A DNA stretch of 64,000 bases from Telmatospirillum siberiense (lineage in GTDB: Bacteria > Pseudomonadota > Alphaproteobacteria > Rhodospirillales > Magnetospirillaceae), in contig NZ_PIUM01000029.1 of NCBI RefSeq assembly GCF_002845745.1, forward strand, positions 1 to 64,000. Reading direction: 5' to 3'. Below, in pieces: positions 38,723 to 60,047 of this stretch. Positions within the stretch are counted from its first letter, which is position 1; each line of letters begins with the position of its first letter. A program made the position numbers and the translations under genes. The notes under the pieces are model-generated. The model was given only the letters and a program-made list of their open reading frames with translations. It did not search any database and was not told where the DNA came from.

Positions 38723-41700
38723 TCAGCGGCTGTTGATCTTCGTAACAGTCAGGCGGGCGTTCGGAGCAGGGGGCGCCGCACGCAGCCGGGCGAGCGTTTC
38801 TTCGATTCCGGTCCAGGCCGGCTTGCTTGGGGCGAAACGGGCCCTGAGATAGCCGACCAGATCGGCGATCTGGGCGTCGGTCAGGCTTCCCTCATAACCC
38901 GGCATATACCCCAGTTCGCCCCGCGCCGGACTTTGAATGCCGCGCAAAATGACCTGGATCAGGTTATCGGGCCGCGTGGAATGCAGATTGCTGTTGTTGG
39001 CCAGCGACGGCATCACGCCGAACAGCCGGGAGCCTCCCCCATCGTGATGGCAGGCGGCGCAGGCTCCCTCGAAAAGCCGTGAGGCGGGGCCGGCCAAGAG
39101 CGCCGTGGCGACGAGAGACGCCGCCGGCGGGCCATTCGCCGGAGTAATGCCCGACGGCGTGGTAAGGGAGGCCAGATAAATGGCCATCGCGCGGATGTCG
39201 GCATCGGGCAGATGGGAGAGTTCCGCCACCACTGGGGCCATCGGACCGGCCGCCACGCCATGGCGGGGCGAGAAGCCCGAACGCAGATAGTCGTAGAGAT
39301 CCTCGGCCGTCCAGGATTGCGGCGCATGGGTCGCGGCGAGGAGCGGCGGCGCCTCCCAGCCATCCACCATGGCGCCGGCGAATTTCGACGCCCCCTCTTT
39401 TTCCGCCCCCAGCAGGTTGCGCGGCGTGTGGCAGGCGCCGCAGTGTCCCAATCCCTCGACCAGATAAGCGCCACGGTTCCATTCGGCGGAGCGGACCGGA
39501 TCGGGCCGGAATTGCGCCGGCCGGTGAAACAGGGCGTTCCAGCCGGCCAGCAGTGGACGCAGGTTGAAGGGAAAGGCCAGACTGTTCCCGGGCACCGGGG
39601 CATGAACCGGAGCCAGCGACATCAGATAGGCGTAGAGCGCCTGCATGTCGGCGTCATTGATGCGGGCATAGGCCGTGTAGGGGAAGGCCGGGTAGAGATG
39701 CCGGCCGTCCCGGCCGATGCCCTGGCGCATGGCCCGCTCGAAGGCGGTGAAGGACCAGCCGCCGATCCCGGTTTCGACGTCGGGGGTGATATTGCCGCTG
39801 TGGATCACCCCGAAGGGGGTTTCCAACGGCCGGCCGCCGGCATAGGGGGGGCCGTCGGCGCCGGTATGGCAAACAACGCAATCGCCGGCCGCCGCCAAAA
39901 TCCGCCCCCGCTCGATAGTGGCCGGCGACCACAGGGAAGGATCGGGCCGCTCGACGAGATCGATAGCGCCCCGCAACGGCATGGCCAGCGTCACCACGCC
40001 CAGCGCTCCGCTCACCGCCGCCGTCAGCGCCCTCCACCAGCCCAGCCTCCGTCGCGCGGGTGCCGGCAGGGAGGGCGGCTCGGCGGCCCCCAACCCATGA
40101 CGGGCCAATTCGGCGCGCACCCGTTCCGGCGTGAAGGGCGGCTCGCGGAAGCGCACTCCCGTGGCGTCGTAAATGGCATTGGCGATGGCGGCGGCGCTGG
40201 GCACCGAAGCCGACTCGCCGGCTCCCCGCGACGGCTCCTCGCGGCGCGGCGGCGTCACCACCTGGATGGCGGGCACCTCGGGGAACGTCAGGATGGGATA
40301 GCCGCCCCATTCGCGGTCGACCACCCGTCCCTCGTCGAAGGTCACCTGCTCCTTGAGCACCCGGCTGGTCGACTGGATCACATTGCCCTCGATCTGGTGG
40401 CGCACCCCGTCGGGATTGATCATCAGTCCGCTGTCCTGGCCAACGGTCACCTTGGTCACCGCCACCTCGCCGGTGGACAGGTTCACGTCCACGTCGGCGA
40501 CCCAGGCCGACCAAGCCGCCGGGAACCCCGGAAATCGGCTATGCACATAGACGGCATAGGCGAAGCCCCGGCCATGCCGGACATCCCCCTCGCCGCCATG
40601 GGTCCCAAAAGTGACGTGCGGCTGCCACCCGGCCCGTTCGGCCACCTGATGGATCAGATCGACGGCCCGCGCGTCGTCGAGATGGCGCAGGCGGAATGCG
40701 ACGGGATCGACCCCCGCTTCGGCGGCCATTTCGTCGATGAAGGAGTCGTGGGCGAAACTGTTGGGAAGGGCCGAAACGCCGCGGATCCAGGAAGCGCGGA
40801 CGATGGGCGGCATGTCATGGACCACCACCCGCATATTGGCGTAGTCATAAGGGGCGATCGAGGTGCGGTCGCCCATCTGAAGCACCTCGGGGACCGGCGC
40901 CACCACACCGGTCAGCAGCAACGCCAGCATGGGCGCGCCATTGGACGGATAGCGCGTCTCGAAGTCGTAGGCGGCCACCCGCCCCTCCCCGTCAAGCCCA
41001 CCCCGCACATCCATCACCTGGGCGCTGCCCTTCGGTTCCCACTCATGCTCCTGCTCACGCGAGAGTTGCACCCGCACCGGCCGACCCACCGCCCGCGACA
41101 GCAGCGCGGCGTAGCCCCCCACGTCGTCGGCGCAGTTGCGGCCATAGCAGCCGGCCGCCTCCAGCCGTTCGACGACCACCGCCTCCTCGGGAAGATCCAT
41201 CAGCAAAGCCAGGTCGCGGCGCAGCCACAACGGATTCTGGGTCCCCGACCACACCGTCAGCCTGCCGTCCCGGAGATCGGCCACCGAACAGGAGGGGCCG
41301 ATGGAGGCATGCATCTGATAGGGCCAGACATAGCTGCGGCTGACGCTGACGGCGGCTTCGGCCAATGCCCGGTCGACGTTTCCCTTGTCCAGCAGGCGGC
41401 GGGACGTCGCCGGATTGGCGCGGATGGCGCCGGCCAGATCGTCGAGACCGGTCAGCCGGGGGACCGGCTTCCACTCGACCCGCAATTCGGCCGCCCCGCG
41501 CACGGCGTTCTCCTCGCGCTCGGCCACCACGCCGACGAAATCGCCCTGCACGACGACCCCCAGGATTCCCGGAATATGGGCAATGGACGACGGGTCGGCG
41601 CCGATCAGGCTGGTCCCGACGAAGGGGCCGCTGTCGATACCGGCGTAAGGGGGCAGCACCACCCGCCCATGGGCCATGCCGGCGATCCGCAGGTCATGAA

Positions 41701-42310
41701 CGAAGGTCAAGCCGCCGGTGACCTTGGCCGGAATGTCGATTCGCGGCACCGAGGTTCCCACCACCTTGTAATCATCGACGGCCTTGACCGGCACCCGGTC
41801 GGCCAGCCGCAGATAAAGACGCCGGCCGACCAGCAGATCGGCGTAGGAGACCCGCTGGTTGGCGCCGTCCCCGCCCCGCACCACCCCGTCCTCGACCATC
41901 AGCGCCTCGACCGGCAACCCCAGCCATTCGCCGGCCAGCGCGACCAGGGCCTGACGAGCCTGGGCGGAGGCCCGGCGCAAGGGATCGGCGGTCACCTGAA
42001 TGGTGGCGCTGGCGATGGTCGGCCCCTGATCGGGAGTGCGGTCGCTATGGCCCAGCACCATGCGCAACCGCCCGAAGGCGACGTCCAGTTCCTCGGCGGC
42101 GATCTGCGCCAGGGCGGTACGAATGCCGGTGCCCAGGTCGACATGGCCGTGAAAGGCCACCACCTCGCCACCGGCCGACAGGGCGAGAAATATCTCGGGA
42201 GCGCCCTCGCCGCCATCGGGCAGGGGGCGGGGCCGCCAGATCACCAGCACGTCCTCGGCCTCCAGAAGGTCGGCCGGCGTCATCCCGGCCAGCGAGGGAA
42301 TCGGGCTCAT
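38723..42310 (-). CDS. Molybdenum hydroxylase large subunit fused to triheme cytochrome c (nicotinate dehydrogenase-type)
   Basis: 1195 residues from the ATG at 42308-42310, overlapping the [2Fe-2S] gene by four bases. Residues 1 to about 730 form an aldehyde oxidase/xanthine dehydrogenase-type molybdopterin subunit of the isoquinoline/nicotinate group (GGEVVAFHGHVDLGTGIRTA, YVWPYQMHASIGPSCSVADL, GCYGRNCADDVGGYAALLSR, VTVGQDSGLMINPDGVRHQI). After a membrane-like segment near residue 760 come three c-type haem sites, CVVCH at 811, CGACH at 957 and CAACH at 1084. The architecture matches nicotinate dehydrogenase NicB-type subunits, which hydroxylate the ring at C6 and pass electrons to the respiratory chain. 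Substrate is inferred from the locus. Confidence 0.88.
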   Translation of the reverse strand: MSPIPSLAGMTPADLLEAEDVLVIWRPRPLPDGGEGAPEIFLALSAGGEVVAFHGHVDLGTGIRTALAQIAAEELDVAFGRLRMVLGHSDRTPDQGPTIASATIQVTADPLRRASAQARQALVALAGEWLGLPVEALMVEDGVVRGGDGANQRVSYADLLVGRRLYLRLADRVPVKAVDDYKVVGTSVPRIDIPAKVTGGLTFVHDLRIAGMAHGRVVLPPYAGIDSGPFVGTSLIGADPSSIAHIPGILGVVVQGDFVGVVAEREENAVRGAAELRVEWKPVPRLTGLDDLAGAIRANPATSRRLLDKGNVDRALAEAAVSVSRSYVWPYQMHASIGPSCSVADLRDGRLTVWSGTQNPLWLRRDLALLMDLPEEAVVVERLEAAGCYGRNCADDVGGYAALLSRAVGRPVRVQLSREQEHEWEPKGSAQVMDVRGGLDGEGRVAAYDFETRYPSNGAPMLALLLTGVVAPVPEVLQMGDRTSIAPYDYANMRVVVHDMPPIVRASWIRGVSALPNSFAHDSFIDEMAAEAGVDPVAFRLRHLDDARAVDLIHQVAERAGWQPHVTFGTHGGEGDVRHGRGFAYAVYVHSRFPGFPAAWSAWVADVDVNLSTGEVAVTKVTVGQDSGLMINPDGVRHQIEGNVIQSTSRVLKEQVTFDEGRVVDREWGGYPILTFPEVPAIQVVTPPRREEPSRGAGESASVPSAAAIANAIYDATGVRFREPPFTPERVRAELARHGLGAAEPPSLPAPARRRLGWWRALTAAVSGALGVVTLAMPLRGAIDLVERPDPSLWSPATIERGRILAAAGDCVVCHTGADGPPYAGGRPLETPFGVIHSGNITPDVETGIGGWSFTAFERAMRQGIGRDGRHLYPAFPYTAYARINDADMQALYAYLMSLAPVHAPVPGNSLAFPFNLRPLLAGWNALFHRPAQFRPDPVRSAEWNRGAYLVEGLGHCGACHTPRNLLGAEKEGASKFAGAMVDGWEAPPLLAATHAPQSWTAEDLYDYLRSGFSPRHGVAAGPMAPVVAELSHLPDADIRAMAIYLASLTTPSGITPANGPPAASLVATALLAGPASRLFEGACAACHHDGGGSRLFGVMPSLANNSNLHSTRPDNLIQVILRGIQSPARGELGYMPGYEGSLTDAQIADLVGYLRARFAPSKPAWTGIEETLARLRAAPPAPNARLTVTKINSR

Positions 42311-42813
42311 CGTTCGGCCTCCGTTGGCTCGGCGCCGGCATCCGCCATGTCCAGCAGCCGGGCCGCCCGCTGAACGGCGCGCAGGATCTCGACATGGGTG
42401 CCGCAGCGGCAAAGATTGTATCTGAGGGCGTCGCGGATCTGCGCCTCGCTGGGATGGGCGATCCGGTCCAGGAAGGCCTTGGCGGTCATGATCATGCCGT
42501 TCACGCAATAGCCGCACTGGGCGGCCTGCTCGTCGATGAAAGCCTGCTGGACCGGATGGAGGGACCGGGCGCCGCCCAGACCTTCGAGGGTGGTCACCTC
42601 CCGCCCCGCCGCGCCGGAGACGGGAATGACGCAGGCCCGCGCCGCCATCCCCTCGATCAGCACCGTACAGGCGCCGCACTCGCCAAGGCCGCAGCCGAAT
42701 TTCGGTCCGTTGAGGGCCAGATCATTGCGCAAAATGTAAAGCAGCGGCGTCGCCGGATCGGCCGTTATCGCATGGATACGGCCGTTCACCCGAAGCTCGA
42801 AGGTTCTTTCCAT
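42307..42813 (-). CDS. [2Fe-2S] subunit of molybdenum hydroxylase (nicotinate dehydrogenase-type)
   Basis: 168 residues from the ATG at 42811-42813. Plant-type ferredoxin cluster ligands Cys41, Cys46, Cys49 and Cys61 (FGCGLGECGACTVLIEG) and second-cluster ligands Cys100, Cys103, Cys135 and Cys137 (CGYCVNGMIMTAKAFLDRI, LCRCGTH) are all present. It carries electrons from the molybdenum cofactor in the large subunit to the fused cytochrome c. No FAD subunit is encoded, which fits the NicAB/isoquinoline oxidoreductase layout. A palindrome like those before the other catabolic genes lies about 60 bases upstream. Confidence 0.92.
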   Translation of the reverse strand: MERTFELRVNGRIHAITADPATPLLYILRNDLALNGPKFGCGLGECGACTVLIEGMAARACVIPVSGAAGREVTTLEGLGGARSLHPVQQAFIDEQAAQCGYCVNGMIMTAKAFLDRIAHPSEAQIRDALRYNLCRCGTHVEILRAVQRAARLLDMADAGAEPTEAER

Positions 42814-42870: not shown

Positions 42871-42885
42871 AATGCGTATACAAAC
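42871..42885. promoter_or_regulatory. Predicted MarR operator upstream of dehydrogenase genes
   Basis: AATGCGTATACAAAC, centred on the palindrome GTATAC, lies about 60 bases before the dehydrogenase start. It matches the pattern of sites before marR, the enamidase, the 6-hydroxynicotinate reductase operon and fpr. The remaining sequence to 43034 has no gene. Confidence 0.55.
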
Positions 42886-43033
42886 AATGTGGGAAACCGT
42901 GGAGGGCCTCGCAAGCCCCAAATGCACAAAATTTGGACCTGTTGAGGTAATGCCTGTTTTTTAAGCTTACGACTGAAGAGCAAGAGGCTCCGAGGTTTGA
43001 TATGACGCCTCCGCCCCACTGTCGGCGGGCGAG

Positions 43034-43249: not shown

Positions 43250-43290
43250 CCTTAGGCTCTGGAGCGATTGTTTCGGCCCAGAGCCTAAGG
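43250..43290 (-). terminator. Hairpin family member 2 at the helicase gene stop
   Basis: CCTTAGGCTCTGG and CCAGAGCCTAAGG form a 13-bp stem around a 14-base loop and overlap the stop region of the helicase gene, so this probably serves as its terminator. The loop-side bases (CGAAA..ATCGCTCCA on the minus strand) match the hairpin at 43159-43194. Confidence 0.65.
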
Positions 43291-46200
43291 CCCCACTGGA
43301 GCGAAGGTCAGTTCCGGAAGAATGACTTCCCACTGTTCACACTGCAACCTATCAAGATATTTCTCATCAGTGTCGCTTCGCCGCCGCTCGACGATCGCCA
43401 CCACACGAGCCTCGATACAGGCCATACCCGAAGGCGGGCTGAATGAGCGTGCCAATCGCCCGACGATAAGGCCTTTGGGGTCCGCCAGCATCCAGCGGCC
43501 ATTGGTTTCGTAGGCACGCAACGGCGCCCCCGGCTGCAATCGGCAGATCGTGGCGTGGATATTCGCTCCCTCGGGTTGCCGGCCGGAAAAGCCGATGTCC
43601 ACATCCTCTAGGGTTAGCCGTTGGTAGCGCCTTGCCATTTCGGGCGCCGGTTCCGCCAAGTGCGCTCGTTCCCGGCGTAATAGGCATGGCTTCTTGGGCA
43701 GCGTATCGATCAGGACGTGCCCCGCATCGAACCGGGCGAGCATCAGTGTTTTTCGCGCCCGCGTCATGGCGACGTAAAAAAGCCGGCGCGCCGAGTCCCT
43801 GTCTTCGTTCTTACCGGTTTTTTCCCACCCGCCGTCGAGCACCGCCACGTGATCGAATTCAAGCCCCTTGGACCGATGGGCGGTGAGGAGAAGCAGGCCC
43901 GTCTGCCGGCGGCGCACGTCCCGGCCCCATTCGGCTAACCACTCGATAAAATGGCCTGAGGGCAGCTCCGCGCCGCCGGTTTCCAGGGAATAGGCGTCGA
44001 CGGCGTCATGCAAGAGCGTCCACCAAGGCCCTTCCGGCCGTGCCCGAATCCATTCGGTCATGGCAGTCGGCGTCACCAGCTTGGTTTTGCGCAACCAAAA
44101 AACCAGGGCGCGGGTTTCGCGCAGCTGCCAAACTGGTGCTGTATCCTCGTCCGCCAGCTGTACCGGGATCGCGTTGAGTTCACAGTAGGTGCGCAATGGG
44201 TCTAGGAACTTCCATTCGCGCGCAATGACCGCACATTTGCTCCAGTCCCATTGATCATCGAGCGCAGCCAGGCGGCGAAACTCGCTCATAACCACGATAG
44301 CCTGCACGGCCATGTCATTGCTCGCTGGAATGACTTGCACGCGGCCCTGGCTCACTTGGTCCTTGGCTTGCCAATCGCCACCAAGGGGCAGCTTCCGTCG
44401 CGCCCGGTCAACGGTGATCGGGTACTTGGCCTTCATGCGGCTGGCGGCCGGTTCAATCACCAGATTGGCCGCATCGATGATATGGCTTGTCGAGCGATAA
44501 TTCTCCGTTAGGAACGCCGGTTTGGCACGGTAGTCAGCCTCGAAACAGCGAATGAATTCCACCGACGCCCCGTTGAACGCGTACACGTTCTGATCGTCAT
44601 CGCCGACGGCAAAGAGACTGAGGCGGCTATCGTCATCGCGGAGTGTTCGACCGCTTAAGGCAGAAATCAGCCGATACTGTTCGGGACCAATATCCTGGTA
44701 CTCGTCGACCAGCACCCAACGAAACCCCGCCAACAGGCGGTCTCGTTGCTCATCGGCCTCTTCGGGCGGGAGCCCCTCTCCCTTAAGGAGAGCCACCGCA
44801 TCTTCGATGATCTTCCTGAACTCTTCGCTGCCGACCCTGTCCCCGCGTTGAGCGAAACTCGCCCCTGCCAGCCGCATGGCAAGCCCGTGACAGGTCAGCA
44901 CGGTGACTCCTTTCGCGTCATCGCCGATGAGCTGGGCTAGACGCTTGCGTATTTCCACCGCCGCGTGACGGTTGTAGGCGAGCGCGATGATTCCGTACGG
45001 GTTCTCCCGCTTCACACGGACCAGATAGGCGATGCGGTGGACCAAGACCCGAGTCTTGCCGGCCCCCGGCCCTGCCAGAACCAGGACGTTGGTCATTTCG
45101 CGGTCATCAGCCACGATGCGCTGCTGAATCGGGTTGTCCAACCGCTCCACGATGGTGCGCCAAGAATCTGGTGTGGTTTGTCGGGCCAACTCTTTGTCGG
45201 AGGATGGAAGCCATCGGTGCAGAAAGGTATCCCGACCCAGGCTAAAATAGTCCATCGTCAGTTGCAGCGCCTCGACCATCGCCTTCAGGCCACGCTGCGC
45301 GTACTCCGCCATGACGTGAATTTGCACGACCTGTTCGTCGTAGTGTAGCTTCAACGGCGTGAAATCGGCCTTTACGAAGCTGCGGCGGTCCGCATCCAGG
45401 CGAATCGTCATCGCCGGACGAAAGACCGCCAAGCCCTTATTAAGGCGGATCACCTCCTGCTCGTGCAACCAAAGCAGCGCACGGTCACACAGCTTCTGCG
45501 GATCTTTCGTTTCGGCCTTCAGCAAGAGATCGCCTTGCATCGCCGCCAAGAGTTTGCCCAAAGTGGTTTCTGCCAGCAGGTCGGTGCCACGCGCGCCAGT
45601 CGGCAGGCAGCCGGACAGATGACCCAATAGGAGCTGGGCCGCAGTACGGCGCATCTGGGCCGTCTTGACGATCGCGTCCCACCCTCGCCCGAGGCGGATT
45701 TCGACTGACTCGGCGTCAAGGCGCCGAAGGCGGAGGCTGCCCGCGCCGCTGCCCTCGGTCCGCCCGTCGGAGGCCAGACTTCGGATGATCCGCCATAGCT
45801 TCTCAGGCAGCACATTCGTACAGCCGTCGTCCTTCAGCCGCTGGGCAGCGTGGCGCAGATGGAGCACTGACGACTCACCTTTGTCCATTTCCGGAGCGGC
45901 GAAGCGAAGTTCTTGGATCAGCGCCGTTTCCAGTGCATCCGCCTCTTCCAGCCTTTGCATCGACGAGCGCTCGACGGCAACATGGACGAAGGCCGTCAAC
46001 GCTGTGTCATTGCTGGCGATTCCCAGCCGTTCGAGGTCGTACAATGCCGTCCGCACTTTTTCGGCACTCAGCCGCGACACCCCCATCAACTCGTCAGTGG
46101 AAATGCCGTCATCAGGGTCAGCCACGACGAGCGCACGCACCAGCGACAGTAGCTGACGTCGATAGTCCGGAGCCATCGACATGGCCGCCAGCTTGGTCTC

Positions 46201-49148: not shown

Positions 49149-49176
49149 TTCCGCGCCCTCCCGCATTCCATCATTT

Positions 49177-49388: not shown

Positions 49389-49402
49389 TTTCTGGAGGTC
49401 TC

Positions 49403-50867: not shown

Positions 50868-51572
50868 TCACACCGCCAGATAGGTGTTGCGCACCTCGTC
50901 GTCGGCGGCCAGTTCGGCCATGGTGCCGCCATAACGGATCTCGCCCTTCTCGATGATATAGGCGCGATCGCTGATCAATTTGGCGAAATGCAGGTTCTGC
51001 TCGCAGACCACGATGCCCAGACCCTCCGCCTTCATCCGCAGAATGGCCGACGCCATCTGCTCGACGATCTTGGGCGACAGGCCTTCGGAGGGCTCGTCCA
51101 GCATCAGCATCATCGGATTGCCCATCAGGCTGCGGGCGATGGTCAGCATCTGCTGCTCGCCCCCGCTCATCCGCCCTCCCGGCCGCTTGCGCGCCTCGGC
51201 CAGGTTGGGAAACAGGGCGTAAAGCGTCTCCGGAGTCCATTGCGGCGTATAGGGACGGGGCGGGCGGCGCCCGACCGCCAAATTCTCCTCCACCGTCAGA
51301 TCCGAAAAGATCCGCCGTTCCTCGGGCACATAGCCCAGCCCCATGCGGACGATCTCATGGGTCGGCTTACCGATCACCTCGCAGCCGTCGAAGATCACCG
51401 AGCCCTTTCGCCGCGCCTCCAGGCCGATGACGGCCTTCAGCGTGGTGGATTTTCCGGCGCCGTTGCGCCCGATCAGCGCCACCACCTCGCCCTGCATCGC
51501 ATCCAGCGAGACATCGTTCAGGATCTGCGCCTGGCCGTAGTAGCCGCAGAGGGATTTCACCGCCAGCATCAC
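50868..51572 (-). CDS. Branched-chain-type ABC transporter ATPase (LivF-like)
   Basis: 234 residues. Walker A ALIGRNGAGKSTTLKAVIG, signature RMSGGEQQMLTIARSL, Walker B MMLMLDEPSEGLSP and the switch His region are intact. YGQAQILNDVSL and the ending EIRYGGTMAELAADDEVRNT are typical LivF. It pairs with the LivG-like ATPase, whose stop it overlaps by four bases. Last gene of the long minus-strand operon from 59.0 kb. The substrate is inferred to be nicotinate or a related heterocycle because of operon context, not sequence. Confidence 0.93.
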   Translation of the reverse strand: MMLAVKSLCGYYGQAQILNDVSLDAMQGEVVALIGRNGAGKSTTLKAVIGLEARRKGSVIFDGCEVIGKPTHEIVRMGLGYVPEERRIFSDLTVEENLAVGRRPPRPYTPQWTPETLYALFPNLAEARKRPGGRMSGGEQQMLTIARSLMGNPMMLMLDEPSEGLSPKIVEQMASAILRMKAEGLGIVVCEQNLHFAKLISDRAYIIEKGEIRYGGTMAELAADDEVRNTYLAV

Positions 51573-52345
51573 GCCACCCCTTTCACGGCGTCGGCGTCAT
51601 AGACGGCGCCGCTGCCCAGATAGATGGCCTGAACCTCGGCATTGTCGCGGACCTCCCCCGGACTGCCCCGGGTCACCAGCCGCCCCCTGTTCAGAACCAT
51701 GATGGATGTGGCGTGGGCGAACACCACATCCATGTCATGCTCGGTGAACAGCATGCAGATGTTCCGCTCGCCGACGATGCGGGCCACCAGGCGCATCAGC
51801 TCGATCCGCTCGCGCGGGGCCATGCCGGCCGTCGGCTCATCCATCAGCAGCAGTTTCGGATCGTTGGTCAGGGCCAGCGCCAGTTCCACCCTTTTGAGAT
51901 CGCCATAGGCCAGGATGCTGCAGGGCCGGTCGGCCTGCGGCTCCATGCCGACCAGCCGCAGCAGGGCCAGCGCCTCGTCGCGATAGAGGGAGCCGGCGCG
52001 GGCCAGCAGGGCGCGGATGCGGTGATGGTGCGAAATCAGCGCGAGCTGGAGATTTTCCAGGACGGTCAGCGAGGCGAAGGTGGCGGTGATCTGGAAGGTG
52101 CGCCCGACTCCCAGGCGCCAGATCTGGCGAGGCTTCAGCCCGATCAGTTCGCGCCCGAACAGCCGGATGCTGCCGGCGTCGGGAACGACCTGCCCGGTCA
52201 TCATGTTGAAACAGGTGCTCTTGCCGGCGCCATTGGGGCCGATCAGGGCGAGGATCTCGCCCGGCCGCAGATCCAGGTCCATCTCCCGGACCGCCGGAAC
52301 GCCACCGTAGGATTTGCGCAGACCCCGGACGGAAAAGGTGATCAT
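51569..52345 (-). CDS. Branched-chain-type ABC transporter ATPase (LivG-like)
   Basis: 258 residues from the ATG at 52343-52345, overlapping the permease stop by four bases. Walker A ALIGPNGAGKSTCFNMMTGQ, LivG-typical VGRTFQITATFASLTVLENL, signature replaced by LAYGDLKRVELALALTNDP, and Walker B LLLMDEPTAGMAPRER. The signature motif begins AYGD instead of the usual SYGEQR, a modest variant. It couples ATP hydrolysis to the fused permease. Confidence 0.93.
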   Translation of the reverse strand: MITFSVRGLRKSYGGVPAVREMDLDLRPGEILALIGPNGAGKSTCFNMMTGQVVPDAGSIRLFGRELIGLKPRQIWRLGVGRTFQITATFASLTVLENLQLALISHHHRIRALLARAGSLYRDEALALLRLVGMEPQADRPCSILAYGDLKRVELALALTNDPKLLLMDEPTAGMAPRERIELMRLVARIVGERNICMLFTEHDMDVVFAHATSIMVLNRGRLVTRGSPGEVRDNAEVQAIYLGSGAVYDADAVKGVA

Positions 52346-54219
52346 GCGGCTTTCTCCTTGGTCTTGACGGCCGGCCGGATCGCCCGCCACGCCTGGAAGC
52401 GGTCCGCCGTCCAGGCGACGATGCCCTGCGGGAAGGCCACCACCAGCAGAATGATCACCACGCCGATGACCGCCCGCCAGTAGTCGGTGTAGGTGCTGAC
52501 GAAGATGCGCAGCGCCGTGTAGATCACCGCCCCCACCACCGGGCCGGTCAGGGTCTGGATGCCGCCCAGCAGGACCATCACCAGGCCGTCCACCGAGGTG
52601 CCGATGGAGGCGCTGTCCGGAAAGACGCTGCCCTTGAAGAACGCGAACAGCCCGCCGGCCAATCCGGCGAAGAAACCGCACAGGATGAAGGCCAGCCAGC
52701 GGTGATGGCGCGCATCGATGCCGATGGCGTCGGCGCGGATCTCCGAATCGCGGCAGGCCCGCAGGGTATAGCCGAAGGGCGAGAAGACGATATGGCGCAA
52801 AATCAGGATCGAGCCGCCGCAGACGACCAGGGTCAGGTAGTAGAAGGCGACCGGACCCGACGCCCAATGGGACGGCCACACCCCGAGGATGCCGTTGTCC
52901 CCGCCGGTCAGGCTCGACCATTGGAAGGCCACGGCGTAGGTGATCTGGGCGAAGGCCAGGGTCAGCATGGACAGATAGACCCCGGAAAGCCGCACGCAGA
53001 ACCATCCATAGACCAGGGCGCCCAGGGCGCCGGTCAGCGGTCCGGCCAGCAGCGCCAGTTCCATCGGCAGGCCCAGGCTCTTGGCCGCCAGGGCCGCGCC
53101 GTAGGACCCCAGGCCGAAATAGGCGGCATGCCCGAAGGAGACCATGCCGCCGATGCCGCTCAGCAGATGCAGGCTGGCGGCGAACAGGGCATAGATGGCC
53201 ATTTCGGTGGCGACGTTGAGCGCATAGCCGCTCCCCAGCCAGGGCAACGCCAGCAGCAGGACGGCCACCAGCAGGAAAGCCTTGCCGGCGGCCGGCGGCA
53301 ACCGGCGCAGGACCCGGCCGCCGGCCACGGCGGCGCCGTGCGCCAGACTTTGCGGCTTACCGCGCAGTCCCCATGGACGCACCACCAGGATGACCGCCAT
53401 GGCGAGGAAGGTCAGCACCAGGGTCATCTGCGGAAACACCAGGATGCCGAAGGCGTTCAGTTCCCCGATGATGATGGCCGCCAGGAAGGCGCCGAAGACG
53501 TTGCCCAGCCCGCCGATGACGACCACGACGAAGACCTCGACGATGATCTGCAGATCCATCGCGTGGCTGACCGCGCCGCGCGGCAATTGCAGGGCGCCGC
53601 CCAGGCCGGCCAGCAGGGCGCCCAGGGTGAAGACGCCGGTGAACAGCGAGGCCTGATTGACCCCCAGCGCCGCCACCATGTCGCGGTCATGGGTGGCGGC
53701 GCGCACCAGCGTGCCCCAATGGGTCCGATGGAACAGCAGCCACAGCAGGGCCAGCACCACGGGCCCGAGGGAAATAAGGAACAGATCATATTGGGGAATG
53801 GCCTGATGGAAGAGGCGCACCGCCCCTGCGAGGCCGGGCGCACGCGGCCCCAGCAGATCCTCAGGCCCCCAGATCATCAGAACCGCGTCCTGCACCACCA
53901 GCACCACGCCGAAGGTGGCCAGAAGCTGCAGCAGCTCGGGTGCATGGTAGATCTTGCGCAGCAGGGTCACTTCCAGCAGCAGCCCGAGCAGCGCCACGCC
54001 CAATGCCGCGACCGGCAGGGCGATCCAGAAATTGCCGCCGCCCAGGCCCGAATGTTCCACCAGGCTGTAGGCGATATAGGCCCCCAGCATATAGAGCGAG
54101 CCATGGGCGAAGTTCACGATGCGGCTGACGCCGAAGATGATGGACAGCCCCGAGGCGACGAGGAAAAGAGACGAGGCGCTCGCCAAACCGGTCAAGAACT
54201 GGGAGAACAGGAATTCCAT
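52342..54219 (-). CDS. Fused LivH-LivM permease of a branched-chain-type ABC importer
   Basis: 625 residues in one frame. Residues 1 to about 290 are LivH-like (SIIFGVSRIVNFAHGSLYML, VRAATHDRDMVAALGVNQAS, FVVVVIGGLGNVFGAFLAAI). Residues about 320-600 are LivM-like (MVSFGHAAYFGLGSYGAALA, FGYTLRACRDSEIRADAIGI, GLVMVLLGGIQTLTGPVVGA). These two permeases are normally separate polypeptides, so this is a gene fusion with about 30 linking residues. The ATPase genes follow and the binding protein lies upstream. Confidence 0.93.
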   Translation of the reverse strand: MEFLFSQFLTGLASASSLFLVASGLSIIFGVSRIVNFAHGSLYMLGAYIAYSLVEHSGLGGGNFWIALPVAALGVALLGLLLEVTLLRKIYHAPELLQLLATFGVVLVVQDAVLMIWGPEDLLGPRAPGLAGAVRLFHQAIPQYDLFLISLGPVVLALLWLLFHRTHWGTLVRAATHDRDMVAALGVNQASLFTGVFTLGALLAGLGGALQLPRGAVSHAMDLQIIVEVFVVVVIGGLGNVFGAFLAAIIIGELNAFGILVFPQMTLVLTFLAMAVILVVRPWGLRGKPQSLAHGAAVAGGRVLRRLPPAAGKAFLLVAVLLLALPWLGSGYALNVATEMAIYALFAASLHLLSGIGGMVSFGHAAYFGLGSYGAALAAKSLGLPMELALLAGPLTGALGALVYGWFCVRLSGVYLSMLTLAFAQITYAVAFQWSSLTGGDNGILGVWPSHWASGPVAFYYLTLVVCGGSILILRHIVFSPFGYTLRACRDSEIRADAIGIDARHHRWLAFILCGFFAGLAGGLFAFFKGSVFPDSASIGTSVDGLVMVLLGGIQTLTGPVVGAVIYTALRIFVSTYTDYWRAVIGVVIILLVVAFPQGIVAWTADRFQAWRAIRPAVKTKEKAA

Positions 54220-54281
54220 GGAGAGCGCCTCTGCTCGGTAAAGGATTGGAGGATGGGTCCGCCTCGTCCACCAAAACAGTT

Positions 54282-55493
54282 TCAGTCGGCCGGACGACGG
54301 GCCTTGACCTCGGCGAGGCCCGGCAGGTAGTCCTCGCCCCTCTTATAAGTCCAATCCACCATCACGCCCTTGCCGTCCTTGACGGCGGTCTTGCCGACGA
54401 ACAGGCCCAGTGTCGACTGGTGATCCTCGGGCCGGTAGGTGATTTCGCCGAACGGCGTCGCCACCTTCACCCCGGCGGCGGCGGCCACCAGCTTTTCCGT
54501 ATCGGTGCTGCCGGCCTTGGCCAGGATGGCCGCCACCGATTTCATGGTGGAATAGCCGACGATCGAGCCCAGCTTGGGCAATTCGCCATACTTGGCCTGA
54601 TAGGCCTTGAGGAACGCCTTATGCTCGGGCGTATCGATCTGCGCCGCCGGATAGCCGGTGATGATCCAGCCCGGCACCGTTTCGGCTCCCAGCGGATCGA
54701 GATATTCCGGCTCGCCGGTCAGCATGCTGACCACCGCCTTGCCCTCGAACAGACCGCGGGTGTTGCCCTCGCGGATCAGCTTGATGAGATCGGGACCGAA
54801 GGTCACGTTGAAGATGGCCTCGGGCTGGGCGCGGGCCAGGGCCTGGACGGTGGCCCCCGCGTCGATCTTGCCCTGGGCGGGCCATTGCTCGTCGACCCAT
54901 TGGATATCGGGCCGCCTGGCCGACAGCATGGCCTTGAAGACGGCCACCGAGCTTTGACCGTATTCATAGTTGGGGGCGACGGTGGCCCAGCGCTTGGCCG
55001 GAAGCTTGGCGGCCTCCTCCACCAGCACGGCGACCTGCGGACGGGTCGGCGGCCGCAGACGGAAGGTGTAGCGATGCCCCTGCTCCATGGTCATGGCGTC
55101 GGTCAGGGGCTCGGCGGCGACGAACAGCACCTTGCGCTGCTTGGCGACGTCCGACACGGCGAGACCGATGTGGGAGAAGAAGGTTCCCATCAGCAGGCTG
55201 ACGTTTTCACGCGACAGCAGTTCGTTGGCCACCGTCACCGCGTCGCCCGGCTTGCCGTTGTCGTCGCGCGAGATCACCTCGACGGGGCGGCCGTTGATGC
55301 CGCCCGCCGCGTTGATTTCCTCAAGCGCCATCTGCCAGCCGTTGCGATAAGGCAAGGTGAAGGCCGGCAGGGTTGAATAGCTGTTGATCTCGCCGACCTT
55401 GATCGGCTCGGCCGCCCGGCCGGGACCTGAAAACAGGCAGGAGGCCACGACGCCCATCGCGCCCAATGCTGCGGATACGGATCTGATTGCCAT
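54282..55493 (-). CDS. ABC transporter substrate-binding protein (LivK/Peripla_BP_6 type)
   Basis: 403 residues from the ATG at 55491-55493, with AAGGA upstream; an upstream frame start at 55532 is weaker. The signal peptide is cut near GRAA-EPIKVGEINSYST. The mature part is a type I periplasmic binding fold (GWQMALEEINAAGGINGRPV, GTFFSHIGLAVSDVAKQRKV, WATVAPNYEYGQSSVAVFKA). The family binds branched-chain amino acids, amides, urea and aromatic acids. Genes on both sides suggest it binds nicotinate or another N-heterocyclic carboxylate. Confidence 0.9.
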   Translation of the reverse strand: MAIRSVSAALGAMGVVASCLFSGPGRAAEPIKVGEINSYSTLPAFTLPYRNGWQMALEEINAAGGINGRPVEVISRDDNGKPGDAVTVANELLSRENVSLLMGTFFSHIGLAVSDVAKQRKVLFVAAEPLTDAMTMEQGHRYTFRLRPPTRPQVAVLVEEAAKLPAKRWATVAPNYEYGQSSVAVFKAMLSARRPDIQWVDEQWPAQGKIDAGATVQALARAQPEAIFNVTFGPDLIKLIREGNTRGLFEGKAVVSMLTGEPEYLDPLGAETVPGWIITGYPAAQIDTPEHKAFLKAYQAKYGELPKLGSIVGYSTMKSVAAILAKAGSTDTEKLVAAAAGVKVATPFGEITYRPEDHQSTLGLFVGKTAVKDGKGVMVDWTYKRGEDYLPGLAEVKARRPAD

Positions 55494-55541
55494 GCGCGCT
55501 GTTCCTTCACGCTTTTTTAAGTCGTTGGTCACAAGGCTTGT

Positions 55542-56129
55542 TTAACGCAAACCGTCCTCACCCTTGATATCCTCGGCCGCCAGCCCCCCGATGCGGGGCA
55601 GCGGACGGCCGCTGTCGGTCACCGCCACGGCGATGACGATCTCGTTGGCCCGGGGGGCGTCGGAGATGCGGATCTCGGCGCCGTCGAAATGGCTGCGCAC
55701 GAAAGCCGCATCCTTGTGGCCCAGGGGAATGTCGAGCGCCACGCCCGGCCCGCCGCGCTTTTTCGACGACGGTACCAGGGCCGCGCCCTTTTCCACCGCC
55801 TTGCGCAAGGGAGCGCCCAGCTTGGGATGCAGCAGGGCGGCGGCGTGCTCAAGCTCGCCATTTTCACCAACGGCGGCCGCCTTGCCATAACTTTGCGCCT
55901 GGGCGGGGGTAATGCCCAGGGCCGCCACCGCCCGCTGGCCCAGAAGACCGCCCAATTCCTCGCCTATTTCGATCAGCAGGTCGAGATTTTCGTGATAGGC
56001 CCCGGCGAAAGGGTTCTCGATTACCGCGGCGGCCACCGCCTTGCGGGTGGCAGGAACCACCGGACGATCCATCTCGCGATGGGTTTCCTCGACGGTGACC
56101 ACGATCTTGCGGATCTTCGCCTTGCTCAT
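55542..56129 (-). CDS. AA_synth (DUF1185, PF06684) family protein, copy A
   Basis: 195 residues, starting MSKAKIRKIVVTVEETHREM. Family features: AVIENPFAGAYHENLDLLIE, GKAAAVGENGELEHAAALLH, LVPSSKKRGGPGVALDIPL, and SHFDGAEIRISDAPRANEIV. Structures of this family show a variant chorismate-mutase-like fold; no reaction is established. It overlaps copy B by four bases, and the paralogues clearly differ, so they may form a heteromer. Conserved placement between a 6-hydroxynicotinate reductase and an importer suggests a role in the downstream ring-opened intermediates. Confidence 0.88.
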   Translation of the reverse strand: MSKAKIRKIVVTVEETHREMDRPVVPATRKAVAAAVIENPFAGAYHENLDLLIEIGEELGGLLGQRAVAALGITPAQAQSYGKAAAVGENGELEHAAALLHPKLGAPLRKAVEKGAALVPSSKKRGGPGVALDIPLGHKDAAFVRSHFDGAEIRISDAPRANEIVIAVAVTDSGRPLPRIGGLAAEDIKGEDGLR

Positions 56130-56710
56130 CGCAACCCGTCCTTTCCCTGAATTTCCGAAGCGGCCAGGCCGCCCAGCCTGTGATGGATCCTGGCGCCGGT
56201 GGACATGACCAGCACCAAAACGATCTCATCGGCCCGCGGTCCGTCGGCAACCCCCACCTCCATGGCGTCGAAATGACTGCGCACGTAGGAAGCGTTGACA
56301 TGGGTCAGCGGCACGTCGAGTCTGGCCCCCACCCCGCCCACCTTCTTGGTGGAGGGCACGATGGCCTTGGCCTCGCCCAGGGCGTCGCGCATGGCGTAGC
56401 CCCCCGGTACATGCCAAAGGGCGCCATGCTCCAGTTCGCCGGCCGAACCGACGATGGCGCCCTTGCCATAGCCCTGGATGGTGGCGGGCCCGCCCCCCAA
56501 CATCAGCACCAGCCGGCGCGCCATGTCGGCGCCCAGGGGTTCCAGATCCTTCATGAACCAGGCGATATCCTCGACGAAGCGCCCGGCGAAGGGATTGCGG
56601 ATCACCGTCAGGATGGCCGCCCGCCGCAGCGGTTCGTCCGGCGGCGGACCGCCCTCGTGATAGATCTCCTCGGCGAGTGTCACCACCTTGCGGATCTCGA
56701 TATTGTTCAT
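56126..56710 (-). CDS. AA_synth (DUF1185, PF06684) family protein, copy B
   Basis: 194 residues, starting MNNIEIRKVVTLAEEIYHEG. The same motifs as copy A are present: TVIRNPFAGRFVEDIAWFMK, GKGAIVGSAGELEHGALWHV, IVPSTKKVGGVGARLDVPL and SHFDAMEVGVADGPRADEIV. The overall similarity to copy A is clear but partial, indicating an old duplication. Its stop overlaps copy A by four bases and its start overlaps the UPF0280 stop by one base (TGATG). Unknown activity. Confidence 0.88.
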   Translation of the reverse strand: MNNIEIRKVVTLAEEIYHEGGPPPDEPLRRAAILTVIRNPFAGRFVEDIAWFMKDLEPLGADMARRLVLMLGGGPATIQGYGKGAIVGSAGELEHGALWHVPGGYAMRDALGEAKAIVPSTKKVGGVGARLDVPLTHVNASYVRSHFDAMEVGVADGPRADEIVLVLVMSTGARIHHRLGGLAASEIQGKDGLR

Positions 56711-57579
56711 CACGCGCACTCCGCTCTTTCGTCCGACGGCAGAAAGACACCGCCGCCGACGACCTCGACCACGCCCCGCAAGGACAGCTTCGCGCCACCG
56801 ATCAGCCCCCGCCGAAGCAATATCCTTGCCTTTTCCACACCGGCGGCGATTGCCCGGCGGCAATCCGCCTCGTCCAGCGGACCGACCGCCACGGTGACCG
56901 AACGGTCGCCCAGGTCGCTGTCGGGATCGAGATCCCTGGCCGGCCGGCGGCTGACCGCCGGATGTCCGGGAAGATCGACGGCATTGGCGATGACGGTGGC
57001 CGCGGCGTCGGCCTCCGCGGCGTTGCGCCCCAGCACCGTCACCGAATCGGCGATACCAAGGGAAAAACTGCGCCCGCCGGCACCACTGGTGGCGATGCCG
57101 CGAACCGGCTGGGCGGCCCCAATCACCGCATGGGCATCCACCGCCCCGCCATCGATCCGGCTGACCACGCCGATGCGGAAGGACCGGCCGGACGCCAGGT
57201 GAAAGGCGATGTCGCCGCCGTTGTTGACATAGGCGCGCGACAGCCGGCGTCCGTCCAGCATGGCCGCCAGCACATGGTCGGCGACCGCGCCGGCCACCGC
57301 CGCCATCGGAGTGATGAAGTGGTCGGCCAGGGGCAGCACGGCCCCCAGCATGGCCCGGGCGACGGCGCCGTCCACCGGCAGGCCGGGACGGGCGAACGAC
57401 CGCAGAATAGGCAGCTGTGCCGCCAAAACCGGCAGAATGGGATGAAAACGGGCTTCCGCCTGGACATAGGCGCGCGCCACCTCGGCCGGTTCGCCGAAGG
57501 CCTCGACCACCAGATCGATGGGGCCGTGCTGCAGATGCAGCCGCCGGCGGTCGGCGAGAAGCGTGGCCCGCGCCGTCAT
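56710..57579 (-). CDS. UPF0280 family protein (ApbE-like fold)
   Basis: 289 residues from the ATG at 57577-57579, overlapping the reductase stop by four bases. Features: PMAAVAGAVADHVLAAML, AYVNNGGDIAFHLASG, GIATSGAGGRSFSLGIADSV and VTVLGRNAAEADAAATVIAN. These fit UPF0280, whose members resemble ApbE flavin transferases. A flavin-attachment or assembly role for the adjacent reductase is attractive but unproven. The tight coupling argues for an obligate role in the pathway. Confidence 0.85.
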   Translation of the reverse strand: MTARATLLADRRRLHLQHGPIDLVVEAFGEPAEVARAYVQAEARFHPILPVLAAQLPILRSFARPGLPVDGAVARAMLGAVLPLADHFITPMAAVAGAVADHVLAAMLDGRRLSRAYVNNGGDIAFHLASGRSFRIGVVSRIDGGAVDAHAVIGAAQPVRGIATSGAGGRSFSLGIADSVTVLGRNAAEADAAATVIANAVDLPGHPAVSRRPARDLDPDSDLGDRSVTVAVGPLDEADCRRAIAAGVEKARILLRRGLIGGAKLSLRGVVEVVGGGVFLPSDERAECA

Positions 57580-59039
57580 CCGGGCCGCCCTCCCCAGGCG
57601 TAGTGGTGGGACGCCATCGGCCACGGATTGCCGGAGGGCCAGGCGAGCACCTTCCGGCGGTCCAGCAGCTCCAGTTGCCCGGCCCTGACGACGTTGCCGG
57701 CATGGCCGCCCATGGCGACATAGTCGTCGAGGCGCATGGTGAATTCGACGGGCGCCACCAGGGCCGGCGTCGGCACCGAGCCGAAAGCGTTCTTCGGCAG
57801 CAAGGTGACGTCCACCATGAAGGTGATGCCGCCGCCCGGCCAGACATAGGTGGGCGCGCCCCCGCAGGTCACATGGGTCAGCCCCTTCTTGACGGACTGG
57901 GTGAGCAGCACCGGATTTTCCGTCACCCCGGCGCGCAGCGAGCCTCCGGCGCCGGCGATGAACAGAACGGTGCACAACGCCGGCTCGCAGTTTTCCCGGA
58001 TCCTTTCGACCGTGGCCGCCACCGCGTCGGGCATCGGCGCGGGAACCGGGATCAGGGCGTCATCCAGCAGGTAATAGCCGGAATGCTCGCCGGTGGTGCT
58101 GACCATCAGGAGACGCAGGCCCGGGCGGGCATATCTGGCGTCGAAGCGCTCGATGATCGACAGGGGCTCGGTGATGTCGGTGCCGCCCCAGCCGGTGCCG
58201 GGATCGGCCACCTGGAAGTAGCGCCCCGGGGTGGACCGCCGGCCGCGGAGGACCACGCCGCTTTCCGGCAGGCCCAGATAGCGGCCGGCCTTATGTTCGG
58301 TCAGCACGCCGGTGATATGGTCGTCCACCACCACCACCTCGTCGACCAGCCCGGCCCACTGCTTGGCGAAGATGCCGATGGTGGCCGAACCGCAGCCGAC
58401 CCGCATGCGGTCCTCGGGCACGTCATTGACCACCGGCGGACGGCCGGCCTGCACCAGCACGCGGGCCCCGCCGTCGATGACCAGCTCCACCGCCTGACGG
58501 TTGGACAGCTCCAGCAGGGTCCGGCAGGTCTGCCTCCCCTCGGCCTTGCTGCCGCCGGTCAGATGATGGACGCCGCCCAGGGACAGCATCTGCGAGCCGT
58601 ATTCCCCGGTGGTGACGTGACCGACCGCCTCGCCGTCGCGGCGCACCACGGCGCCTTCCGGCCCGAGGAAACGGTCGGTGTCGACCTTCACCTTGACGCC
58701 GCAATAGCTGAAGATGCCTTCGGTGACCACGGTCACCATGTCGACGCCCTCATGGGTGCTGGCAACGATGAAAGGGGCCGGTTTGTAATCGGGATAGGTG
58801 GTGGCGGCGCCGATGCCGGTGACGAACTGCCGGCCGTCCTCGGCCGCCTGGGCGTCCCATTCCCGTTCGAGGAAAGGAACAGCGTCGCCGTCGGCCTCCA
58901 TGGTTCGTTGGAGTACAATCAAAGGATCGACACGAACCAGCTCCCCGCCGACATTGGCATAGCGATCGCAAGCGCCGCCGCGGCCCTCGCGGATCCGGCA
59001 CAATACCGGGCAAGCGTCGCAGTTGATGATGTCACTCAC
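57576..59039 (-). CDS. 6-hydroxynicotinate reductase-like iron-sulfur protein
   Basis: 487 residues from a GTG at 59037-59039, seven bases after AGGGAG; the adjacent GTG at 59042 is too close to it. An N-terminal Cys cluster Cys7-x2-Cys10-x3-Cys14-x9-Cys24 (NCDACPVLCRIREGRGGACD) likely binds Fe-S. Other family blocks are GIFSYCGVKVKVDTDRFLG, GGARVLVQAGRPPVVND, VVVDDHITGVLTEHKAGRYL and GGAPTYVWPGGGITFMVD. The homologue in Eubacterium barkeri reduces 6-hydroxynicotinate to tetrahydro-6-oxonicotinate with reduced ferredoxin. First gene of the operon down to livF, with two motif copies upstream. Confidence 0.85.
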   Translation of the reverse strand: MSDIINCDACPVLCRIREGRGGACDRYANVGGELVRVDPLIVLQRTMEADGDAVPFLEREWDAQAAEDGRQFVTGIGAATTYPDYKPAPFIVASTHEGVDMVTVVTEGIFSYCGVKVKVDTDRFLGPEGAVVRRDGEAVGHVTTGEYGSQMLSLGGVHHLTGGSKAEGRQTCRTLLELSNRQAVELVIDGGARVLVQAGRPPVVNDVPEDRMRVGCGSATIGIFAKQWAGLVDEVVVVDDHITGVLTEHKAGRYLGLPESGVVLRGRRSTPGRYFQVADPGTGWGGTDITEPLSIIERFDARYARPGLRLLMVSTTGEHSGYYLLDDALIPVPAPMPDAVAATVERIRENCEPALCTVLFIAGAGGSLRAGVTENPVLLTQSVKKGLTHVTCGGAPTYVWPGGGITFMVDVTLLPKNAFGSVPTPALVAPVEFTMRLDDYVAMGGHAGNVVRAGQLELLDRRKVLAWPSGNPWPMASHHYAWGGRPG

Positions 59040-59098
59040 CACAGATCTCCCTGATCCCTGAAGCCCGGCCCGGAGAAACGGCCCGACGACAGGAATAT

Positions 59099-59139
59099 CA
59101 TATGTGTACGCACAAAAACAAGATGCATGCACAAAAATA
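59099..59139. promoter_or_regulatory. Predicted tandem MarR operators before the reductase operon
   Basis: CATATGTGTACGCACAAAA at 59099-59117 and GATGCATGCACAAAAATA at 59122-59139 lie about 60 and 85 bases before the reductase start. The first is very near the palindromic consensus; the second is a half-matching copy. They are followed by a CTCTTTTAAAAGAG palindrome at 59143-59156. Confidence 0.6.
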
Positions 59140-59237: not shown

Positions 59238-59273
59238 CGGCGCGGCGCCAAGGGCGCATGAGGGGCGCCGCTA

Positions 59274-60047
59274 TTACTGTTCGACGAAGGCCTTCTCGAT
59301 CACATATTCGGCGGGATCCGAGCTGCTGCCTTCGCTCAGACCGGCCTCCTCCAGCAGGCGCTGGGTGTCGCGCAACATGGCCGGACTGCCGCACAGCATG
59401 AAGCGATCGTCGGCGGCGTTGAGCGGCGGCAGACCGACATCGGCGAAAAGCTTGCCGCTGGCCATCAGATCGGTGATGCGCCCCTGGTTGCGGAAGGTCT
59501 CGCGGGTGACCGTCGGGTAATAAATCAGCTTTTCCCGCACCGTCTCGCCGAAAAATTCATTTTCCGGCAGTTCGCGCGTGAGCAGATCATGGTAGGCCAG
59601 TTCGGCCACCTGACGGCAACCATGCACCAGGACCACTTTCTCGAACCGCTCATAGGTTTCCGGATCCTTGAGCACGCTGAGAAAGGGGGCGAGGCCCGTG
59701 CCGGTGCCCAGCAGATAGAGGTTGCGGCCGGCGGTCAAATTGTCGAGCAGCAGGGTCCCGGTCGCCTTGGCGCCGACCAGGATCTCATCGCCTTCGCGCA
59801 GATGCTGGAGGCGCGAGGTCAGCGGCCCGTCCGGCACCTTGATGCTGAAAAATTCGAGGGTTTCCTCGTAATTGGCGCTGGCCATGCTGTAGGCCCTGAG
59901 CAGGGGACGGCCGTCGACCGGAAGCCCGATCATCACAAACTGCCCGCTCCGGAAACGGAAGGAGCGGTCGCGGGTGGTGGTGAAACTGAAAAGATCGTCC
60001 GTCCAGTGATGGACCGACAGGACCGTTTCATGGCGGATACTGCTCAT
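59274..60047 (-). CDS. fpr: Ferredoxin-NADP reductase (Fpr type)
   Basis: 257 residues from the ATG at 60045-60047, preceded by AGAGGAAG. FAD-binding RPLLRAYSMASANYEETLEF, NADP-binding GTGTGLAPFLSVLKDPETYE, and the C-terminal DDRFMLCGSPAMLRDTQRLL are typical of bacterial FNR class I. It would exchange electrons between NADPH and ferredoxin or flavodoxin. Within this locus it could supply reduced ferredoxin to the 6-hydroxynicotinate reductase. It has its own promoter with two motif-like sites upstream and its own terminator. No ferredoxin gene is in the window. Confidence 0.9.
   Translation of the reverse strand: MSSIRHETVLSVHHWTDDLFSFTTTRDRSFRFRSGQFVMIGLPVDGRPLLRAYSMASANYEETLEFFSIKVPDGPLTSRLQHLREGDEILVGAKATGTLLLDNLTAGRNLYLLGTGTGLAPFLSVLKDPETYERFEKVVLVHGCRQVAELAYHDLLTRELPENEFFGETVREKLIYYPTVTRETFRNQGRITDLMASGKLFADVGLPPLNAADDRFMLCGSPAMLRDTQRLLEEAGLSEGSSSDPAEYVIEKAFVEQ

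Follow-up and report, generated by a model that had tools for sequence, protein, structure and literature searches.

A probable reductive nicotinate catabolic locus in Telmatospirillum siberiense and a proposed role for its UPF0280 protein

The window analysed here is a 64,000-nucleotide stretch of Telmatospirillum siberiense DNA (contig NZ_PIUM01000029.1, positions 1 to 64,000). Positions 38723-60047 very likely hold a locus for reductive nicotinate catabolism of the kind known from Azorhizobium and Bradyrhizobium. The locus is a further case of a known pathway rather than a new one; its new and testable part is the proposal that a UPF0280/COG2122 protein matures the flavin of 6-hydroxynicotinate reductase (Hnr). 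A first-pass annotation had named a molybdenum hydroxylase fused to cytochrome c, its [2Fe-2S] subunit, a reductase, an enamidase, a ferredoxin-NADP reductase (FNR), an importer and a MarR regulator. All of these genes are present. That inventory had missed a UPF0280 gene and two DUF1185 genes, which lie behind hnr in the order hnr, UPF0280, DUF1185 copy 1 and DUF1185 copy 2, with overlaps of 4, 1 and 4 bases. Chance assembly of the locus is excluded because the gene combination recurs in Pseudomonadota and Bacillota.

The reductase gene (57576-59042, minus strand; alternative GTG start at 59039) is present once in the genome. Its product is 42-44% identical to seven Hnr proteins, six from Bacillota, including that of Eubacterium barkeri, and one from a deltaproteobacterial metagenome-assembled genome (MAG). 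Searches of Pfam, NCBIfam and the PDB gave no match supporting a function, only one sub-threshold Pfam match to a glycine-cleavage domain, and the Hnr structure model (mean predicted local distance difference test score, pLDDT, 57) had no PDB match with an E value up to 0.001. The enamidase (49403-50599, plus strand), predicted to open the ring of tetrahydro-6-oxonicotinate, matches the E. barkeri enamidase structure (2vun_A) across residues 15-393 of its 398 (378 bits); the next PDB match scores 29 bits. The HxH, GEVGLG, HTGG, HINGG and GxDxPxG stretches of the two proteins align free of gaps. Pairwise identities of Hnr and enamidase correlate over 27 loci (Mantel r 0.979; reached by 0/500 permutations), a figure to which shared descent of the hosts contributes. 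The first-pass assignment of both enzymes to the families of the E. barkeri pair is thereby upheld.

Relatives of Hnr were collected for comparison. Homologues were found in 30/297 genomes sampled within the order and 32/398 within the phylum, both samples including the window's own genome, and in 26 plasmid records, where the listed matches come mostly from genera that we take to be Alphaproteobacteria. Full-length Hnr occurred in 2/341 class-level genomes, both previously found, and nine other matches there covered the ferredoxin domain only. No relatives were seen in the viral contigs searched. The comparison set of 54 reductase loci (L039-L052 and L097-L136) comprised 4 plasmid stretches from the 26 records, 10 named loci and 40 genome stretches. 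Before conservation was counted, Hnr sequences shorter than 471 residues (3/55) and UPF0280 sequences outside 251-339 residues (4/52) were dropped; near-identical, truncated or frame-broken copies were left out of the structure alignments, which used 8 Hnr and 8 UPF0280 sequences. The 52 Hnr sequences share 119 near-invariant positions, and Hnr has an invariant four-cysteine motif and two further invariant cysteines. Some reductase matches (L012, L018, L026, L061, L062, G312, L050 and L047) are interrupted by an in-frame stop or fall into two pieces, which may reflect errors or decayed genes.

The predicted large subunit of nicotinate dehydrogenase (38723-42310, minus strand; Pfam MoCoBD_1, MoCoBD_2 and Cytochrom_C) is a NicB-like molybdenum hydroxylase fused to a three-haem cytochrome c domain. 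Its CxxCH haem motifs are at residues 811, 957 and 1084, and its most hydrophobic 19-residue segment is 761-779. It is 54-62% identical to the molybdenum subunits of reductase clusters with a separate iron-sulphur gene, and its best paralogue in its own genome reaches 33%. The adjoining [2Fe-2S] subunit (42307-42813, minus strand; Fer2_2 and Fer2) is 58-71% identical to its counterparts in proteobacterial clusters of this type. Many other proteobacterial reductase clusters (L097-L117 and others) have a different arrangement, in which a gene for a flavin adenine dinucleotide (FAD) subunit of the dehydrogenase and a molybdenum-subunit gene directly precede hnr. The window's closest sampled relatives (L097 and L098) are arranged in this way.

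The FNR-like gene (59274-60047, minus strand; FAD_binding_6 and NAD_binding_1; NF008178 171 bits, cut-off 390) shares the strand of hnr and is situated 231 bases upstream of it. FNR homologues were detected in 9/14 proteobacterial loci with a separate iron-sulphur gene and 2/30 others, although some stretches may be too short to include one. An N-terminal ferredoxin domain is present in the Hnr of the Bacillota and of the deltaproteobacterial MAG. Of the ten loci L043-L052, nine have the motif of this two-cluster domain 2 or 3 times, and the tenth (L045) is truncated by a contig end; the motif count is 0 for the window Hnr and for all 44 proteobacterial loci (L039-L042 and L097-L136). Since the window Hnr lacks the ferredoxin domain, the adjoining FNR gene probably supplies its electrons from NADPH.

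A branched-chain-type ATP-binding cassette (ABC) importer is encoded at 50868-55532 on the minus strand. It consists of a LivF-like ATPase (50868-51572; UrtE/LivF-type NCBIfam matches below cut-off) that is conserved in relatives' clusters, a LivG-like ATPase (51569-52345; ABC_tran, with UrtD/LivG-type matches below cut-off), a fused LivH-LivM permease (52342-54219; BPD_transp_2 in two stretches, with UrtB- and UrtC-type matches) and a periplasmic substrate-binding protein (54282-55532; Peripla_BP_6, 238 bits).

The MarR regulator (48699-49166, minus strand; Pfam MarR) resembles BpsR of Bordetella, a 6-hydroxynicotinate sensor (6pcp/6pco, 95 bits), and is closer to 2nnn, a 'probable transcriptional regulator' (163 bits). 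BpsR contacts 6-hydroxynicotinate through Tyr15, His23, Arg26 and His32, and NicR of Pseudomonas putida does not share these ligand residues, according to the accessible part of PMC6837509. The equivalents of Tyr15, Arg26 and His32 are kept in the window regulator (3/4 contacts). Among 35 cluster regulators, the window's included, the tyrosine and the arginine are present in 35/35, His32 in 27/35 and His23 in 1/35, and phenylalanine occupies the His23 position in 31/35. The likeness to BpsR and the three kept contacts argue that the genes may answer to a pyridine carboxylate.

Operator-like sites were found upstream of the hydroxylase pair (42872-42887, plus strand, one mismatch to ATGYGTATACRYAHAA), marR (49180-49195, minus strand, two mismatches), hnr (59100-59115, plus strand, two mismatches) and, twice, the FNR gene (60098-60113, one mismatch, and 60186-60201, two mismatches, both plus strand). 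The site upstream of the enamidase gene (49374-49391, plus strand) was obtained with a weight matrix and is not among the pattern matches. The motif, which was built from the matched sites themselves, occurs at five places in the cluster and one other (35164), with 11 overlapping matches against 0.89 expected. In leave-one-out ranking (out of 127966) the second FNR site ranked 5, the hnr site 27, the enamidase site 36 and the first FNR site a poor 2278; with ranks spread from 5 to 2278, the operator evidence from the window alone is therefore moderate. Exact copies of the palindrome TTYGTATACRAA number 13 in the 44 relative loci, and all 13 are upstream of a detected cluster gene by no more than 300 bases (shuffled sequences, 0.0). 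A loose form of the operator pattern gave 32 matches against 16.0 expected and was dropped; the stricter form was chosen after this result and is the only one used.

Together these genes suggest the following pathway. The ABC importer, judged by its context, would take up nicotinate. The membrane-tethered hydroxylase, with its iron-sulphur subunit and a molybdenum subunit carrying three haems c, would form 6-hydroxynicotinate, and homology suggests that its electrons go to the cytochrome chain. Hnr, by homology, would reduce 6-hydroxynicotinate to 1,4,5,6-tetrahydro-6-oxonicotinate with electrons that FNR probably draws from NADPH. The strong homology of the enamidase indicates that it would open the ring and release ammonia, after which the carbon probably passes to glutarate, as reported for Azorhizobium. 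The BpsR-type regulator would repress the genes until relieved by 6-hydroxynicotinate. Nicotinate import, respiratory hydroxylation, ring reduction and hydrolytic opening, the course proposed in the first-pass annotation, were consistent with every test run.

Several observations weigh against this assignment. The pathway is predicted for this organism from sequence, and the importer, FNR and NicB assignments are family-level matches below curated equivalog cut-offs. The regulator has phenylalanine where BpsR has His23. The exact TTYGTATACRAA palindrome occurs in only 11/44 relative loci and has no exact copy in the window, and 6/13 exact sites come from one family. Finally, the hydroxylase pair is split from the other nicotinate genes by a 5.2-kb helicase gene (43285-48477, minus strand), an open frame of 1730 residues that includes DEAD/helicase-C and UvrD domains, beyond which marR and the enamidase gene lie about 6 kb away. 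This separation is a correction to the first-pass annotation; the hydroxylase pair is still nearby. The family-level assignments of the hydroxylase, importer and FNR would also suit a locus that uses the same hydroxylation, reduction and hydrolysis to break down another pyridine or related N-heterocycle, such as a substituted nicotinate. Accessory genes differ among the Hnr clusters of relatives, some of which have another gene pair for ring opening, and in strain SG-6C the cluster is used for 6-chloronicotinate after dechlorination, according to the accessible part of PMC3511419. However, the enamidase and Hnr match enzymes characterised on nicotinate, and the regulator keeps the arginine and histidine with which BpsR contacts the carboxylate and the pyridine nitrogen. 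We consider another substrate improbable.

Reductive nicotinate clusters have been described in Azorhizobium caulinodans, Bradyrhizobium japonicum USDA110, Rhodopseudomonas palustris HaA2 and strain SG-6C, and the reductive route of Azorhizobium is reported there to be aerobic (accessible part of PMC3511419). The route common to E. barkeri and Azorhizobium is also named in the accessible part of PMC9304392. The first-pass annotation had called the mix of a respiratory-type dehydrogenase and an anaerobe-type reductase notable, but it is no novelty, as the combination had already been described in several Alphaproteobacteria (PMC3511419, accessible part). The window cluster is very probably the same as that of A. 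caulinodans, B. japonicum, R. palustris and SG-6C. It differs from the published alphaproteobacterial cluster in having the hydroxylase pair behind a helicase gene and two DUF1185 copies; the two unknown proteins counted in the accessible part of the published description would be better matched by a sampled relative family (L119-L125) that has UPF0280 and one DUF1185. The window also resembles the E. barkeri cluster (L043), in which hnr is followed by UPF0280 and which includes an enamidase and DUF1185. It differs from the window in that the E. barkeri dehydrogenase is encoded by four genes and has no cytochrome c, Hnr carries a two-cluster ferredoxin domain at its N terminus and DUF1185 is present only once. 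Downstream genes that we take to be Hgd- and Mgm-like adjoin the E. barkeri cluster.

Kitts reportedly described the aerobic reductive route of Azorhizobium in 1989 and 1992, the later work including a membrane-bound hydroxylase coupled to a c-type cytochrome oxidase, and Alhapel in 2006 is said to have recognised the first three enzymes in nine Proteobacteria. The mix of respiratory dehydrogenase and ring reductase is established because of the published clusters, together with what Alhapel in 2006 and Kitts in 1992 are said to have found. The missing downstream 2-formylglutarate genes had likewise been called notable. Indeed no gene for 2-formylglutarate reductase or 2-methyleneglutarate mutase was present among the scanned frames of the locus span, the remainder of the genome not having been searched. 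This absence is expected rather than notable, since glutarate is reported to be on the alphaproteobacterial route (PMC3511419, accessible part).

The UPF0280/COG2122 gene (56710-57579, minus strand) encodes a protein with a predicted ApbE-like fold, proposed here as a flavin transferase that matures the reductase. UPF0280 lies inside the fetched stretch in 51/54 reductase loci, and in 50 no other gene was detected between it and hnr; in L126 a MarR match lies between the two. The three exceptions are L047, where the reductase is split over contigs, and L113 and L114, where UPF0280 is elsewhere on the same contig, bringing the total to 53/54. At E 1e-8 UPF0280 was found in 5/5 reductase-positive and 0/38 reductase-negative genomes, the latter taken from the order and phylum sample lists, many from the same family, and not a random draw. 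Identities of Hnr and UPF0280 correlate over 46 loci (r 0.932; reached by 0/500 permutations), and here too shared descent of the hosts contributes.

The fold points in the same direction. The sequence matches PF02424 (ApbE) below cut-off (E 9.6e-4) and DVU1097 (2o34; E 5.4e-6, and 3e-9 for the E. barkeri homologue), while the match to the flavin mononucleotide transferase 6nxj is not significant (E 0.22). A model built from 8 sequences (pLDDT 81, predicted template-modelling score 0.85) has an ApbE-like fold and matches 2o34 with E 1.2e-10. Among the best 50 of 267 structural matches, 2o34 and ApbE/Ftp/FmnB account for all 41 whose E value is 0.007 or lower, the 42nd standing at E 0.42. Normalised to query length, the TM-scores are modest (0.34-0.56). 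The NGGD, TSG, GGRS and ADxxAT stretches of UPF0280 are invariant or near-invariant, and NGGD-, TSG- and ADxxAT-like stretches are shared with ApbE/Ftp/FmnB and DVU1097. Alhapel in 2006 reportedly found a covalently bound flavin and iron-sulphur clusters in E. barkeri Hnr. Because this reported cofactor, the fold and the co-occurrence agree, flavin maturation is preferred: UPF0280, translated in overlap with Hnr, would most likely install or mature the Hnr flavin. We regard this as the best single reading, with chances about evenly balanced.

Other features of the two proteins speak against a flavin transferase. The general base of ApbE is His257 in the Vibrio cholerae enzyme, according to the accessible part of PMC12052999. 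Unlike the ApbE family, UPF0280 has no histidine among the near-invariant positions of 48 sequences, the best histidine column reaching 38/48. The presumed substrate also differs, as the ApbE target motif D-x-x-[ST]-G-A-[ST] is found in 0/52 Hnr sequences. The nearest stretch, GCGSA[T], was rejected as a universal flavin site, having alanine in 3/52 and serine in 2/52 at the bracketed position. Invariant threonine, serine, cysteine, histidine or tyrosine residues of Hnr, among them T104, S112, T122, T145, S150, T162, C217, S219, H242, H250, S270, T288, T316, T317, C352, S368 and T425, are candidates for flavin attachment. These absences would suit a UPF0280 that serves the iron-sulphur or persulfide chemistry of Hnr instead of flavin transfer, and Hnr has the invariant cysteines described above. 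Such a role has been proposed for COG2122 with DUF39, which are needed for homocysteine synthesis in Desulfovibrio (accessible part of PMC5764234). Nevertheless, the confident PDB matches of the UPF0280 model other than DVU1097 are flavin transferases. Hnr, moreover, is said to hold a covalent flavin. When Hnr was considered as a homologue of DUF39, both being COG2122 partners, hhalign gave a probability of 0.24 on a 0-100 scale (13 DUF39 against 52 Hnr sequences), a negative limited by low alignment diversity. The two COG2122 partners show no detectable homology, so they need not share a modification. An iron-sulphur or persulfide role appears less likely than flavin maturation.

A literature search that left subscription journals mostly outside returned no assigned function for UPF0280 in the nicotinate pathway and no firm one for DUF1185. 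If UPF0280 does mature the Hnr flavin, protein flavinylation would extend to a second branch of the ApbE fold, and the unexplained role of COG2122 with DUF39 in homocysteine synthesis could be re-read as related to flavin rather than persulfide. The wider proposal has two parts: that UPF0280 is a dedicated cytosolic transferase of an ApbE-fold branch, placing the covalent flavin of Hnr at a site that does not resemble the ApbE motif, and that in some clusters the enamidase is replaced by a lactamase of the HyuAB type, which may depend on ATP. Taken as a whole we put it forward tentatively, slightly more doubtful than not.

The second part of this proposal comes from clusters in which the enamidase was not detected. 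Among the 54 reductase loci, 31 have the enamidase, 10 have HyuA and/or HyuB of a Neorhizobium plasmid type, none has both and 13 have neither. HyuA and HyuB, of the hydantoinase/oxoprolinase type, are encoded in the clusters L040 (15698-19491) and L041 (17017-20852) and also in L102, L110, L116, L126, L128, L129, L130 and L134, none of which has a detected enamidase. Genome-wide, 27 of 40 reductase-positive genomes have only the enamidase, 10 only HyuB, one (G488) both and two (G006 and G191, 76% and 89% complete) neither, for totals of 28 with the enamidase (at least 60% identity) and 11 with HyuB (at least 65%). Both cuts were chosen after a gap was seen in the results, and a 41% enamidase-like match in G026 is uncounted. 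The mutual exclusion is significant by Fisher's test (p 8e-7) with relatedness ignored, yet two families (f27 and f32) show both states in different genomes. The HyuB homologues in the window genome are only 31-35% identical. HyuA/HyuB are likely a non-homologous replacement of the ring-opening enzyme in those clusters. If so, gene finders based on the enamidase would miss about a quarter of the sampled reductive nicotinate clusters (10/40 genomes).

The two DUF1185/AA_synth genes (copy 1, 56126-56710; copy 2, 55542-56129; both minus strand) match PF06684 with 240 and 239 bits (cut-off 27), and copy 2 matches the SPO0826 structure (2qtp) with E 1.4e-87. The copies are 45% identical to each other and are the only DUF1185 genes of the genome. 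With profiles built from the same 54 loci, two copies were counted in 20, one in 28 and none in 6, hence at least one in 48. The loci without one are L047, L113, L114 and three hydantoinase loci (L102, L110 and L130). In E. barkeri a single DUF1185 gene lies directly behind the enamidase gene (L043, 11188-11769). The authors of the SPO0826 structure noted branched-chain amino acid transporter neighbours and suggested amino-acid metabolism (accessible part of PMC2954203); the nicotinate context offers another reading. Because E. barkeri has DUF1185, the role of this family should belong to the part of the pathway that fermenters and aerobes share. The pair may aid such a step, and handling of tautomers or enamines around the ring-opening product of the enamidase is put forward with low confidence. 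A more specific role would be that of 2-formylglutarate decarboxylases leading carbon to glutarate, the reported alphaproteobacterial route (PMC3511419, accessible part). In the trigonelline pathway, oxidation of succinic semialdehyde is reported to be stimulated by the homologue TgnF, whereas HcdD showed no such stimulation (accessible part of PMC7913881). DUF1185 is also present in E. barkeri and in the other named Bacillota loci, the exception being L047, where the contig breaks off behind the reductase. The alphaproteobacterial route is said to need a decarboxylation, whereas E. barkeri reportedly keeps the carboxyl group and reduces 2-formylglutarate. A decarboxylase is accordingly a most improbable assignment, and a step shared by both kinds of organism is preferred.

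Other genes of the window were also recorded. Genes for AztA-, AztB- and AztC-like components of a metal (zinc/manganese) ABC transporter adjoin the cluster at 60320-63149, all matching below NCBIfam equivalog cut-offs. On the other side, a secretin (GspD-like) gene lies at 2557-4878 (minus strand) and a type II secretion/pilus-type ATPase gene at 11995-13734 (plus strand). A glycogen block at 16843-26041 (minus strand) comprises genes for a phosphorylase, a 4-alpha-glucanotransferase, a CBM48/alpha-amylase protein and a branching-enzyme-like protein.

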